Shown: piece by piece, positions 5,236-15,096 of the stretch
Layout of the letters: each line of letters begins with the position of its first letter
Numbering within the stretch: position 1 is the first letter of the stretch
IMG/VR virus record: IMGVR_UViG_3300005264_000159
Coordinates: 1-29,828 of that record
DNA: 29,828 nt
DNA from: a virus
Reading direction: 5' to 3' (one strand)
Made by a program: the position numbers and the translations under genes
Notes under the pieces: model-generated
Told to the model about the DNA's origin: nothing
The model's database searches: none
What the model saw: only the letters and a program-made list of their open reading frames with translations

Positions 5236-5478
5236 ATGGAGAATGGAAATTTAAAATGGAGTGGCGAATTAGTGTTAGATATCCTATCAAGGAATAGCAT
5301 TAATAATAAAGTTAGAATAACATATGATGAAATAGTAACACAATCGTTTATAAGTAAAAGCACAGTAACTAGAAAAATTAAAGAATTAGTTGAAAAAGGT
5401 TATATTACAAGAATAAAAGATACGAGTGATAGTAAAAATGTGAGTAATATTTATACAATTATAAAAAGGAGAAAATAA
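5236..5478 (+). CDS. winged-helix DNA-binding protein, candidate replication initiator subunit
   Basis: 80 residues, MENGNLKWSGELVLDIL and on. A full winged-helix fold is visible: helices at 8-20, the SKSTVTRKIKELVEKGYI recognition helix (about 40-57), and a wing ending NIYTIIK. This resembles the DNA-binding domain of plasmid and phage initiators. It lies between the two iteron arrays, 2 bases before the next gene, so binding to the iterons is a reasonable inference. A stand-alone MarR-like regulator is the alternative. Confidence 0.65.
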   Translation: MENGNLKWSGELVLDILSRNSINNKVRITYDEIVTQSFISKSTVTRKIKELVEKGYITRIKDTSDSKNVSNIYTIIKRRK

Positions 5479-5479
5479 A

Positions 5480-5677
5480 ATGACAAGCAATAATTCGGGA
5501 TTCAGTATTATACCAAATTCAATATTTGACAATGACGATGTAAAAGACTTTGCATTGTTAGTATTAATAATTCTACACTGTTATAAGGATAATAAAAATC
5601 AAGTAAATATGAGCTTAAATGAAATAGTAACAAGTGAGAAAGTGTTTAGTAGTAACATTTATACTATTATAAAGTAG
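5480..5677 (+). CDS. truncated winged-helix protein (N-terminal half)
   Basis: 65 residues, MTSNNSGFSIIPNSIFD and on. The N-terminal region resembles replisome-organiser/HTH proteins (IIPNSIFDNDDVKDFALLVL, then LNEIVTS). The recognition helix expected after residue 50 is absent: the sequence passes directly from EIVTSEKV to FSSNIYTIIK, the end of the wing. The shift suggests an internal deletion of the recognition helix. Another frame reads on as SDLNRLGSQMIEL just past the stop. Probably a damaged gene; an intact very short protein is the less likely view. Confidence 0.5.
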   Translation: MTSNNSGFSIIPNSIFDNDDVKDFALLVLIILHCYKDNKNQVNMSLNEIVTSEKVFSSNIYTIIK

Positions 5678-10369: not shown

Positions 10370-11056
10370 ATGTTAAGTAAAAAGCAAAAGGAATATATTG
10401 AGAGAAATTATATAGAAATGAGATATGAAGATATTGCAAAAGAACTAGGAATTAAGAAGTATGAGGTTGACAAATATTGTTCTGGTTCTAAATTACCTAA
10501 TAAATATAATGAAAAAGATAAAGAAAGGATTGAATTTCTTAAAAATAATTTCAGTAAAATAGGATTGGCTAATTGTGCAAAAGCATTAAATATTAATTAT
10601 TCGAATATGAGTAGAAAAATAAACAGATATATAAGAAATGGATTAATTACTAGAGAAGAGTTAGGCTATGACAATAAAAATAATTATGGTAAAAAGATAG
10701 AATATATTATTGAAAATTACAAGGAAATGACATTGATAGAATTAAGTAAGGGCACTAGATATTCACCAATGAGAGTATTGGATATTATGGAAACTAATAA
10801 GGAAATTAATTATTTTGAATCAAATCATCATTTAAGAATGGAAAAGCTTATTGAAGACAAGCAACAGGAACATGAAGAGTTAGTTAATAATAGAATTAAA
10901 GAAAATAAAGATAATTTAAGAATAATGAATGATTACAGAATAGGTGATAAGATAGGTAAAAATATAGTAATTAAAGAATATCCTAGATATTTTCTTTGTA
11001 AAAATGAAGTAACTAATATTAGAACTTGTATTTCAAAGCCTGTAATGGTAAGTTAG
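10370..11056 (+). CDS. HTH DNA-binding protein, candidate late-gene regulator
   Basis: 228 residues after AAAAAGGAGAG, MLSKKQKEYIERNYIEMR and on. Three HTH-like segments can be seen: YEDIAKELGIKKYEVDKYC (19-37), LANCAKALNINYSNMSRKI (about 65-83) and LIELSKGTRYSPMRVLDIM (about 123-141). The tail is more beta-like (RIGDKIGKNIVIKEYPRYFL) and contains no metal site. A DNA-binding protein between the replication genes and the packaging genes often turns on late transcription (ArpU/RinA-like role), but I do not recognise its family; the role is from context. Confidence 0.65.
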   Translation: MLSKKQKEYIERNYIEMRYEDIAKELGIKKYEVDKYCSGSKLPNKYNEKDKERIEFLKNNFSKIGLANCAKALNINYSNMSRKINRYIRNGLITREELGYDNKNNYGKKIEYIIENYKEMTLIELSKGTRYSPMRVLDIMETNKEINYFESNHHLRMEKLIEDKQQEHEELVNNRIKENKDNLRIMNDYRIGDKIGKNIVIKEYPRYFLCKNEVTNIRTCISKPVMVS

Positions 11057-11222: not shown

Positions 11223-11375
11223 ATGAAACAATATTGTTATAAGTGCAATAAAGAAGAGGAAACATATGAAACAAGCAAAGACTTTTACATCTATATTGAT
11301 AATAAAAAGATTACTATAGATAGAAAGGTTGAAAGATGTTGCAATTGTAATTCGATTGTAAGATGGTTAAAATAA
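11223..11375 (+). CDS. small zinc-ribbon-like protein
   Basis: 50 residues, MKQYCYKCNKEEETYET and on, ending CCNCNSIVRWLK. Two cysteine pairs, C5-x2-C8 and C39/C40-x-C42, separated by a beta-like segment, suggest a single zinc ribbon. The start ATG at 11223 follows AAAGGATG, and another ATG at 11219 is closed by a stop two codons on. The gene is isolated between two structured RNA segments. Function unknown; small zinc ribbons often bind nucleic acid or host proteins. Confidence 0.55.
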   Translation: MKQYCYKCNKEEETYETSKDFYIYIDNKKITIDRKVERCCNCNSIVRWLK

Positions 11376-11473
11376 GGTATAGAAATAATATTTTATATTT
11401 TAAACAGGCGATTTCAGAAATTCAAAATAGATGATTTTTTAAGTTTGACTCCTAATTTTTTTTTATGTGTAGA

Positions 11474-11615
11474 TACAGCGTATAAGTCCGACATTACTTA
11501 TGCGTTGTAGTGTACATATAAAGTGTACAAATAATAGGCTAGGGTAGCTCCCGAAAGCGTACAAGCTTTAGTACGTTGCCTATTTTCATAATTAAAGCAT
11601 AATACTAAAGGCGGT
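11474..11615 (+). ncRNA. structured RNA leader, candidate translational switch
   Basis: Several helices follow each other. A 14-bp stem with two G-U pairs (11474-11487 with 11496-11509). Two TGTACA blocks that can pair (11511-11516, 11524-11529). A 7-bp closing stem AATAGGC/GCCTATT (11533-11539 with 11578-11584) enclosing hairpins GGG-TAGCT-CCC (11542-11552) and GCGTAC/GTACGT (11557-11562, 11571-11576). The two inner loops both contain AGCU and could kiss. An alternative 8-bp pairing, CTTTAGTA (11566-11573) with TACTAAAG (11603-11610), would destroy the last hairpin and cover the start of the ribosome site AAAGGCGGT. That is the layout of a regulatory leader for the gene at 11622. A packaging (cos/pac) site is the alternative. 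Confidence 0.6.
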
Positions 11616-11621
11616 ATAAAG

Positions 11622-12194
11622 ATGATATTTACAGATACGAATATGTATAGAAGAGGACAAATTGGCGAAGAGATAGTAGACAATTATATAATAAATAGTG
11701 GGAAATTTATTCCTTTTGCACCAATGGTAGAGGATAAAGCACATCCATTCGATAGAATATTAGCTTCAGTTGATAAAAAATCATTGATGATAGCAGAAGT
11801 AAAGACAATAGATGCGAGGGATTATTACCCAGATACAGGAATATCAATATCTAACTTTAGAGAATATTTAAACATTGAGAATAAATATAATCTTGAGGTT
11901 TGGATATTTTTTGTAGATTCTAAATTAGGAAAGATATATGGAAATACATTATCTAAATTAAGAAATGAAACTAAGGTAAATTATAAAGGTAAAGTATTGG
12001 AATATCCTATGAAGAGTAAGAATTTTACAGCAAATGGTGGAGAGATTATATATTTTCCATTAGAGAATATGGTTGATATAAAGAAATTAAACGATATAGA
12101 TATACAACGAATTAAAAATCAACATAATAAAGAATATCGTGGTTTAAAGGATAAAAAAGGATACTATAAATGGAAAGAAGGCAATATAAGTTAA
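11622..12194 (+). CDS. PD-(D/E)XK nuclease-like protein
   Basis: 190 residues, MIFTDTNMYRRGQIGEEI and on. The order of motifs fits the PD-(D/E)XK nuclease fold: helix with E17, HPFDRIL with D44, then AEVKT with E59 and K61. Phage proteins of this kind beside terminase genes act as resolvase-like or packaging-associated endonucleases. The C-terminal third is Lys/Asn-rich and may bind DNA. It is the first gene after the structured leader, with its ribosome site AAAGGCGGT in the switchable region. Fold assignment is good, exact substrate unknown. Confidence 0.7.
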   Translation: MIFTDTNMYRRGQIGEEIVDNYIINSGKFIPFAPMVEDKAHPFDRILASVDKKSLMIAEVKTIDARDYYPDTGISISNFREYLNIENKYNLEVWIFFVDSKLGKIYGNTLSKLRNETKVNYKGKVLEYPMKSKNFTANGGEIIYFPLENMVDIKKLNDIDIQRIKNQHNKEYRGLKDKKGYYKWKEGNIS

Positions 12195-12617: not shown

Positions 12618-13794
12618 TTTTAGTTTAAACCCTATCTATAAAAAAGCTTATAAAAGTGATGATAGATATAGGATAATTTATGGTGGAGCAGGTTCTGGCA
12701 AGAGTTATTATGTAGCACAAGAGTTAATATTGAGGCATTTACAGGATAAAGGTAGAAAGACGTTAATATTGAGAAAAGTAGGAAAGACAATAAGAAATTC
12801 CGTATTCTCTTTATTAACTGAAATTATTAATGAAAATGGATTATCTCATTTATTTACCATAAAAAAAGGTGATATGAGTATAAGATGTATTAATGGAAAT
12901 GAGATTATAACACAGGGTTTAGATGATGTAGAGAAATTAAAATCTATAAGTGGTATTACTGATATATGGATTGAGGAAGCAAGTGAGATAACACAGAAGG
13001 ATTTTGAACAGATAGATTTACGATTAAGAGGTAAGACAGCATTTAAAAAGCAAATAACATTGACATTCAACCCTATATCGAATTTAAGTTGGTTGAAATA
13101 TTACTTTTTTGATAGAAAGCCAACAGATACATTCATATTGAAATCAACGTATAAAGATAATAAATTTATTGATGATGATTATAAGAAAGCAATTGAAAAG
13201 TTGAAAGAAACGGATTATCAATATTATAGAATATATGCGTTAGGTGATTGGGGAGAAATTGGAAATGTAATCTATAAAAATTATGAAGTTAAAGAATTTG
13301 ATAAAAAAGGATTTGCTAATAGATTCTATGGTGTCGATTGGGGATTTGCTGATGACCCATTTGCATTTATAGAAATAAACTTAGATAAGAAAAAGAAAAT
13401 AATTCATGTATTAAACGAATTGTATTTGTTTGGAAGTAGCAATGAACGTTCAGCTAGGAAAATAAAAGAATTTGTAGATGAGAGAGATATCGTAACGTGT
13501 GATAGCTCAGAGCCTAAAAGTATTAGCGAGTTTAGACAGTATGGTATTAATGCATATGGAGCTAAAAAAGGTAAAGGTTCAATTGAGAATGGTATAAGAT
13601 GGATACAAGGATATGAGATAATAATACATCCGTCATGTATAAACTTTACAAATGAGATTTCAAAGTATAAAATGAAAGAAGATAAACATGGAAATGTATT
13701 ACCAGTACCAGTAGATAGGGACAATCATTTACTTGATACTCTAAGATATGCAATAGAGAGCGAAATCGTGAACAATGAATGGAGCTTCTTTTAG
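12604..13794 (+). CDS. terL: terminase large subunit (Terminase_3/PBSX type)
   Basis: 396 residues if it starts at ATG 12604 (alternatives 12607, 12610), overlapping terS and probably coupled to it. ATPase motifs: Walker A GGAGSGKS (27-34) and Walker B IWIEEA (E124/E125), with TFNP as the coupling motif. RNase H-like nuclease: D245 in YGVDWGFADD, D300 in TCDSSEP and D378 in NHLLDTLRYA. It pumps DNA into the prohead through the portal and cuts it. Length is normal and no motif is missing. Confidence 0.93.
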   Translation: MMMINFSLNPIYKKAYKSDDRYRIIYGGAGSGKSYYVAQELILRHLQDKGRKTLILRKVGKTIRNSVFSLLTEIINENGLSHLFTIKKGDMSIRCINGNEIITQGLDDVEKLKSISGITDIWIEEASEITQKDFEQIDLRLRGKTAFKKQITLTFNPISNLSWLKYYFFDRKPTDTFILKSTYKDNKFIDDDYKKAIEKLKETDYQYYRIYALGDWGEIGNVIYKNYEVKEFDKKGFANRFYGVDWGFADDPFAFIEINLDKKKKIIHVLNELYLFGSSNERSARKIKEFVDERDIVTCDSSEPKSISEFRQYGINAYGAKKGKGSIENGIRWIQGYEIIIHPSCINFTNEISKYKMKEDKHGNVLPVPVDRDNHLLDTLRYAIESEIVNNEWSFF

Positions 13795-13805
13795 GAGGTT
13801 ATTTA

Positions 13806-14471
13806 ATGGAAAAAGAATTAATAAAATATTTAAAATCCCAAATTGAAAAGTTTGGTGAATTACAAAATGAAATGGATATCGGTAAGAGATATTTTAAACA
13901 AGAGAATGATATATTAACTAGAAAGAAGTTTAAAGGAATAGCAATTGAGGATAAAAAGACTTCTGAAAAAAGATATGTTAATGTTGAAGATACAACAAGA
14001 GCTAATCATAGATTACCAAGTGCATTTGCTAAATTACAGATAACTCAAAAGGTAAGTTATTCTTTAAACGATGATTTATCGGTAACTAATGATGAGGAAA
14101 TATACAAAGAGTTAATTCCAGATTGGAAGATTAAACTTAAAAAGTCTGCTATGAAAGTATCACAAACAATATATGAAGCATGGCAACCATATCTAGAAGA
14201 TAAGAAATTGAAATTCAATAGAATACCTGGAGACCAGATTATAGTTGATTTTGAATCATCTACAAGAGATAATGAAAAGAGAATAATTAGACATTATATG
14301 GTAGATGGAGTTGAAAGAGCTGAGATTTGGGATGAATATAAGGTAGTAATCTTTGAAAAGAAAAAGAAATGGACATTGGTAGAAACTAGAAGTCATATAC
14401 AGAATCAACTTGTAAATTCAAGAGGCGAAGTTATAGATGAGTCTGGGGAAAGTTGGGGAATTATACCCTGA
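13806..14471 (+). CDS. portal protein, N-terminal part (SPP1 gp6-like), frame broken
   Basis: 222 residues in this frame from ATG 13806 (AGGAGG site), recognisable as the N-terminal half of an SPP1-type portal: NRIPGDQIIVDF, HYMVDGVERAEIWDEYKVV, and WGIIP at the end, where family members continue with an IPLYNN-type segment. Instead the frame meets TGA at 14469. The rest of the portal follows in the +1 frame. The junction looks like a deletion of an estimated 20-30 codons that is not a multiple of three. As the portal is essential, either this copy is dead or the window's sequence is wrong here. Confidence 0.8.
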   Translation: MEKELIKYLKSQIEKFGELQNEMDIGKRYFKQENDILTRKKFKGIAIEDKKTSEKRYVNVEDTTRANHRLPSAFAKLQITQKVSYSLNDDLSVTNDEEIYKELIPDWKIKLKKSAMKVSQTIYEAWQPYLEDKKLKFNRIPGDQIIVDFESSTRDNEKRIIRHYMVDGVERAEIWDEYKVVIFEKKKKWTLVETRSHIQNQLVNSRGEVIDESGESWGIIP

Positions 14472-15096
14472 CTTTGCAAATAATATTGATGATTTCCAGG
14501 AGATATTAACTGTATTAAAAGGATATGGTGGTAGTGACCCATCTAAAGTATTAAATCTTATAAAGAAAATGGGTGGAATTAACATTGCAGAAGGTGGAAG
14601 TGTTGATTATAAACAAGGTATTATCCCAACAGAAGCTAGAGAAGTAGCGTTGAAACAATTTAGAAAAGATATATTTGATGCAGGAATGGCAGTAGATACA
14701 GAGAACATGGCAAAAGGAAATGTAACTAATAACATCATAGCTTCTATGTATGAGAATTTAAATATGAAAGCTTCTGGATTTGAACAGGAATTACAGGACT
14801 TTTGGAGAAAAATAAATTTCATAATTAATAGATATTTTGAAATGATGGGTATTGATACTAGAGTAAGTGGTGAATTAGTATTTGATAGAACAATTTTAGT
14901 TAATCAGAAAGAAAGAGCTGAAGAAAATAAGATTGATTTAGAGAATTTATCATTGTTATCGGGATTTGTAAGTGAAGAGATGATAGCGGAAATTATAAAC
15001 AATCTTGAATTTGTAAAAAAGAATTCAAATATGACTAAAGAGGAAATTTTAAAAAGTGTACTTGATAAGTCACAAGATTTCCTAATAGAAGAGTGA
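14437..15096 (+). CDS. portal protein, C-terminal part, frame broken
   Basis: The second half of the portal. The ATG at 14437 is nominal; homologous sequence begins near 14471 with DFANNIDDFQEILTVLKGYG and continues through KKMGGINI, KQGIIPTEARE and a helical C-terminus (EEMIAEIINNLEFV). No ribosome site precedes 14437, so a free-standing protein is unlikely. Together with the upstream part it makes about 430 residues, slightly short for the family, in agreement with missing codons at the junction. It overlaps the first part by 35 bases. Confidence 0.75.
   Translation: MSLGKVGELYPDFANNIDDFQEILTVLKGYGGSDPSKVLNLIKKMGGINIAEGGSVDYKQGIIPTEAREVALKQFRKDIFDAGMAVDTENMAKGNVTNNIIASMYENLNMKASGFEQELQDFWRKINFIINRYFEMMGIDTRVSGELVFDRTILVNQKERAEENKIDLENLSLLSGFVSEEMIAEIINNLEFVKKNSNMTKEEILKSVLDKSQDFLIEE

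Follow-up and report, generated by a model that had tools for sequence, protein, structure and literature searches.

A putative int-alpA-family leader RNA in a virus record, with one loop complementary to two mutually exclusive strands

The window analysed here is an IMG/VR virus record of 29,828 nucleotides, and all positions given below are those of the window. On its plus strand, positions 11532-11624, from the stem P1 to the start codon, hold a divergent copy of int-alpA RNA (RF02996), a short folded leader found ahead of many phage genes, often those of selfish DNA-cutting enzymes. What is new here is that, judging from the sequences of the window and of its relatives, the loop of the P3 hairpin (L3) uses the same nucleotides for complementarity with two partners, a spacer strand and the Shine-Dalgarno (SD) region. 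The favored reading, to which we give a probability of roughly two in three, is that such int-alpA-family 5' leaders control the translation of the gene behind them, L3 toggling between the spacer and the SD, and that they have been moved together with homing endonuclease genes. The int-alpA class would thus gain a testable role, the control of translation in cis, and, if this is right, a single RNA module would set how much product phage genes of quite different kinds yield.

Structure, borders and family of the leader

The strands AAUAGGC (11533-11539) and GCCUAUU (11578-11584) form P1, the 7-bp stem that the first-pass annotation had described as closing two hairpins sharing AGCU in their loops, and both the stem and the shared letters are as described. 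The hairpins are P2 (GGG-UAGCU-CCC, 11542-11552) and P3 (AGCGUAC, 11556-11562, with GUACGUU, 11571-11577), whose loop L3 is AAGCUUUA (11563-11570). P1 is followed by the spacer strand UAAAGC (11593-11598) and by a predicted hairpin, P4 (AUAC-UAAAGGCG-GUAU, 11602-11617), with the SD AAAGG (11607-11611) in its loop. The predicted folding energy of 11470-11625 is below that of shuffled sequences (z = -3.67), mostly because of a 14-bp dyad lying upstream, as the conserved part of about 95 nt (11531-11625) has by itself a z of -0.96, a stability that is not exceptional. Since folding energy by itself proves little, the case rests on the relatives.

A covariation alignment and a covariance model (R1) were made from 46 window-type leaders, the window copy being left out. 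R1 has a single match within the window, at 11532-11623 (65 bits, E = 7.4e-18). In the 46 copies, 93.7% of the P1, P2 and P3 cells hold standard pairs, compared to 69.5% after shuffling and at most 55% when the strands are slid, and the covariation score is 0.590 as against 0.154. Covariation is strong in P1, where six of the eight pairs show changes on both sides, and in P3, which is 97.7% paired and has changes on both sides in four of six pairs. The letters of P2 were fixed by the search pattern; conservation of the core is thus partly set by construction, while the covarying parts were free to vary. In copies that the model recovered off the pattern, the P2 stem carries compensatory changes (GAG/CTC in L212, GGC/GCC in L004), and both of the L3 complementarities described below are seen again by inspection.

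The relatives are numerous and widespread. The 22-nt core GGNTAGGGTAGCTCCCGAAAGC is present in 35 viral stretches, and a looser form of it finds relatives in the hundreds in viral and bacterial collections, from which at least 257 distinct copies were parsed. The bacterial matches listed belong to the Pseudomonadota, Planctomycetota, Bacteroidota, Verrucomicrobiota, Cyanobacteriota, Actinomycetota and other phyla, as labelled in the database. Among the matches listed, a start codon lies 70-100 nt past the core start in 229 of the 253 copies with a downstream ORF.

The Rfam search proposed in the first-pass annotation leaves the window copy itself unmatched: nothing reaches the gathering threshold, only chance matches appear at E 10, and RF02996 is not matched even at that value. 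Many of its relatives, on the contrary, do pass the gathering score of RF02996 (10 of the 15 CU-type and 5 of the 15 window-type loci that were sampled, and three more), and R1, a window-type model, recovers RF02996-passing CU-type copies (L041, L042 and L174), which shows continuity with accepted members. P1, P2 and P3, their order and the junction letters (UAG and GAAA) are as in RF02996, as is the P3 loop of about 9 nt, and the 3' tail of RF02996 (aAgGG) can pair with its loop (CCuUu). The junction of the window copy differs only in that the CU linker is missing and P3 is longer, extending into GAA-AGC...GUU. Given that many relatives pass the RF02996 score and the window copy does not, the latter is best placed as a divergent member of a catalogued family without an assigned function, and the new phage RNA class that had been suggested was rejected on the matches of the relatives. 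The integrase-alpA location that gave the family its name is not found here, the window copy having a small zinc-finger-like ORF on one side and, on the other, an orphan nuclease gene followed by terS and terL; yet, since many RF02996-passing relatives are also found elsewhere, this location is a feature of the name. The Rfam model, typed 'Gene; sRNA', ends before the SD hairpin and misses about two-thirds of the sampled window-type copies; the 3' border of int-alpA RNA is here extended to the SD and the start codon. The family reportedly stems from the work of Weinberg et al. in 2017. A literature search found int-alpA named as a genome prediction without function, and a search using sequence strings of the element returned no relevant paper.

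The upstream border also had to be moved. The structured leader proposed at 11474-11615 was retained as such, but the conserved RNA corresponds to 11532-11624, as the homologues begin at P1, right after a -10 box. The 14-bp imperfect dyad (11474-11487/11496-11509, with two G-U pairs) and the two TGTACA blocks (at 11511 and 11524) have the letters that the first-pass annotation reported and, given where the homologues begin, were rejected as parts of the RNA. In 99 of 190 copies, the last letter of a -10-like hexamer falls 2-11 nt before P1, compared to 10-14 of 190 (5-7%) in other intervals of equal size, and 35 of the 37 perfect TATAAT boxes end 2-8 nt before P1. The corresponding box of the window is TATAAA (11517-11522), with a predicted transcript start at about 11529. 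Because the -10 box and the predicted transcript start precede P1, the dyad and the TGTACA blocks would be promoter-side DNA, and 11474-11529 probably lies outside the transcript. The dyad, which is absent from the homologues, is number 19 in a list of 42 inverted repeats from 11 kb and is unremarkable in an AT-rich window. TGTACA occurs four times in the whole window, and two of these copies lie exactly on either side of the -10 box (TGTACA-TATAAAG-TGTACA, 11511-11529), an arrangement resembling an operator for a putative repressor of the endonuclease leader promoter; the blocks and the dyad are perhaps an operator.

One loop and two partners

Two pairings of L3 can be drawn in the window. 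In one of them, GCUUUA (11565-11570) pairs with the spacer strand UAAAGC (11593-11598); in the other, CUUUA(GUA) (11566-11573) pairs with (UAC)UAAAG (11603-11610), thereby covering the SD. The latter is the exact 8-nt complement noticed in the first-pass annotation, whose view of mutually exclusive pairings, one of them over the ribosome site, is upheld; the competing spacer pairing had been missed. The complementarities were evaluated in 73 dissimilar copies retained after thinning, by comparing the longest exact complement with that obtained when the partners were swapped (1000 swaps). The complement between L3 and the spacer averages 5.70 nt, compared to 3.32 nt when swapped (s.d. 0.11), and that between L3 and the SD region 4.97 nt, compared to 3.37 nt (s.d. 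0.11). Both pairings are present in 57 of the 73 copies, with 4.7 expected and a maximum of 13 in the 1000 swaps, and in 95% of these 57 copies at least three L3 nucleotides are common to both. As the same nucleotides serve both, the two pairings are mutually exclusive. The dual complementarity is found in both subtypes, and the sequence of L3 differs among copies and yet fits the spacer and SD sequences of its own copy. In about one fifth of the dissimilar copies, for instance that of phage D3, one or the other pairing is missing at the thresholds applied.

The two duplexes are close to balance in energy, with means of -9.0 (spacer) and -8.1 kcal/mol (SD), and -7.8 and -6.4 kcal/mol, respectively, in the window. 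Formed in full, the 8-nt SD pairing of the window disrupts 3 bp of P3; with P3 left intact, about 5 bp of this pairing remain. The SD tends to sit in the loop of P4, the arms of which measure 3.91 nt in real copies and 2.71 nt in swapped ones, so that in the off state two loops may be in contact. A kissing interaction between the AGCU letters of the two loops was also considered; it was rejected in view of a P3 loop that is hypervariable but keeps its pairing with the downstream strands.

Proposed mechanism and competing explanations

In the favored scenario, a sigma-70-type promoter would start transcription at or just before P1, and P1, P2 and P3 would make up a compact conserved core holding out L3. 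In the on state, L3 would pair with the spacer strand after P1 to form a pseudoknot, the spacer strand playing the part of an anti-anti-SD, the SD would be free and translation would be on; in the off state, L3 would pair with the SD region in the P4 loop, the SD would be covered and translation would be off. The two partners, made of nearly identical letters, would compete for the loop. Since the loop can pair with either the spacer or the ribosome site, the leader is probably an on/off switch for protein making. We infer that the two pairings correspond to these states and alter endonuclease output; the Rfam type of int-alpA, the P3 pairs lost to the full SD pairing, the unexceptional stability of the leader and the copies with one pairing missing count against such a toggle, and the leader could also be a fixed expression setting rather than a switch. 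Candidate triggers would be a ligand, a ribosome or phage factor, or the kinetics of folding by themselves. The cassette would serve many phage genes and would travel with homing endonuclease genes.

A comparable situation is known in phages T4 and Aeh1, where I-TevI, I-TevII, I-TevIII, segB and mobE have hairpins that sequester the ribosome-binding site (PMC2988022), so that there too an RNA structure covers the site at which ribosomes bind the messages of phage homing endonucleases. Those hairpins are simple and their control depends on promoter choice, and they are not stated to form a single homologous RNA family (PMC2988022). In contrast, the int-alpA leader would represent a single conserved family that carries its own anti-anti-SD strand and stands before many gene types.

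Several other scenarios may explain the same element. One possibility is a genuine riboswitch for a metabolite or an ion, in which the P1-P2-P3 junction (fixed UA, GAA(A) and UNGCU) would bind a ligand that chooses the partner of L3. The preQ1-II and SAM-II RNAs are translational riboswitches with anti-SD/anti-anti-SD platforms, and the expression platform described here resembles theirs in having a compact pseudoknotted core and a strand that chooses between the SD and another partner; judged by complementarity, the leader also has the mutually exclusive structures, one of them over the SD, of a translational riboswitch. Moreover, Rfam's own model retains the UAG and GAAA letters around P2, and copies are recognisable over many phyla. 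Nevertheless, the downstream genes have no pathway in common and are phage-borne rather than metabolic, the choosing strand is a hypervariable loop, no ligand is known and the extreme conservation of the core is partly set by the search pattern, which makes a ligand-binding riboswitch rather doubtful. A broader proposal, which we consider just as tentative, is that int-alpA RNAs are phage-borne translational riboswitches or sensors of the host state, together a very large class over many bacterial phyla, responding to one signal of infection or host physiology common to selfish endonucleases and phage replication genes.

The Rfam type of the family would instead suit a trans-acting small RNA that would use L3 as its seed for other messages and overlap with the SD incidentally. 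This seems unlikely, as the start codon lies at the near-constant distance reported above, changes in L3 go together with changes in the spacer and the SD of the same copy, and the conserved part has no terminator. A slightly weaker candidate is a DNA-level mobility part of homing endonuclease cassettes, such as an end or recombination site, for which the RNA fold would be secondary. HNH proteins (phrog_374) are indeed over-represented behind the RNA (12 of 71 window-type and 10 of 83 CU-type downstream ORFs, compared to 3 of 90 other ORFs of the same loci). In addition, the flanks of Vibrio phages 1.122.A and 1.013.O are near-identical up to the -10 box, and in 1.122.A the RNA and its gene were cleanly inserted as one unit ahead of the next phage gene; Pseudoalteromonas AL and PHS3 provide a second pair of occupied and empty sites, with complex boundaries. 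Yet, many copies precede genes other than endonucleases, such as the DUF1376 replication proteins behind 13 of 83 CU-type leaders, and the compensatory changes and the SD complementarity favor an RNA. Finally, the cos or pac recognition site for TerS that the first-pass annotation had offered as an alternative would agree with the position of the window element, about 0.6 kb upstream of terS. It is highly improbable, since the homologues are not linked to terminase genes, being found in the tail region (D3), before HNH and other unrelated genes and in bacterial genomes, and since the covariation fits an RNA. The translational control of the gene behind the leader remains the favored reading.

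Genes behind the leader

The plus strand of the window carries, in order, replication genes, a regulator, the ORF that follows the leader (11622-12194), terS, terL and the portal, capsid and contractile-tail genes. The 190-aa product of 11622-12194 is an orphan with zero matches in Pfam, PHROGs, NCBIfam, PDB, phages and plasmids. A motif recognised by eye (GEE...FDR...AEVK) suggests that it is a probable PD-(D/E)XK nuclease and possibly a homing endonuclease; its single-sequence AlphaFold model is unusable (pLDDT 32), and close protein relatives of this nuclease or of TerL were not found in viral contigs. Further upstream, the 50-aa zinc-finger-like ORF (11223-11375) has two CxxC pairs and is weakly similar to MqsA-type zinc domains, and the regulator ORF (10370-11056) is weakly similar to the T5 D5-like transcriptional regulator (phrog_323), a possible controller of late promoters. 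The SPP1-type portal gene is split, the overlapping ORFs 13779-14471 and 14437-15096 each matching the next portion of the same Pfam and PHROG profiles; this frameshift reflects either an error in the sequence or a genuine break.

The location of the leader at the entrance of the packaging genes had suggested a sensor peculiar to that operon, a view not supported by the relatives, which can be anywhere in the genome and stand before homing endonucleases, replication initiators, antirepressors, integrases and small ORFs. The genes behind window-type leaders include HNH, NUMOD and GIY-YIG endonucleases, antirepressors, a replication protein O, an integrase and many unknown ORFs, and CU-type leaders precede endonucleases and unknown ORFs in addition to the DUF1376 proteins, which ties int-alpA RNA to homing endonucleases and phage replication genes.

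Some individual loci are also worth reporting. Vibrio phage 1.088.O (MG592463.1) has three leader copies in one genome (L040, L285 and L286), at least two of which stand before similar ORFs (MKVNTKDFVLRAKKYHG... and MKRLTTDEFILRARKVHG...). Near-identical enterobacterial leaders precede unrelated small ORFs (L041, L053, L055, L070, L144, L185, L186, L194, L209, L222, L279 and L280), and in L279 and L280 the leader site is flanked by the lysis genes and the terminase, the leader resembling a module swapped among genes. In L012, at about 5410-5500, the leader-endonuclease cassette lies directly 3' of the apparent 3' end of a tRNA gene.
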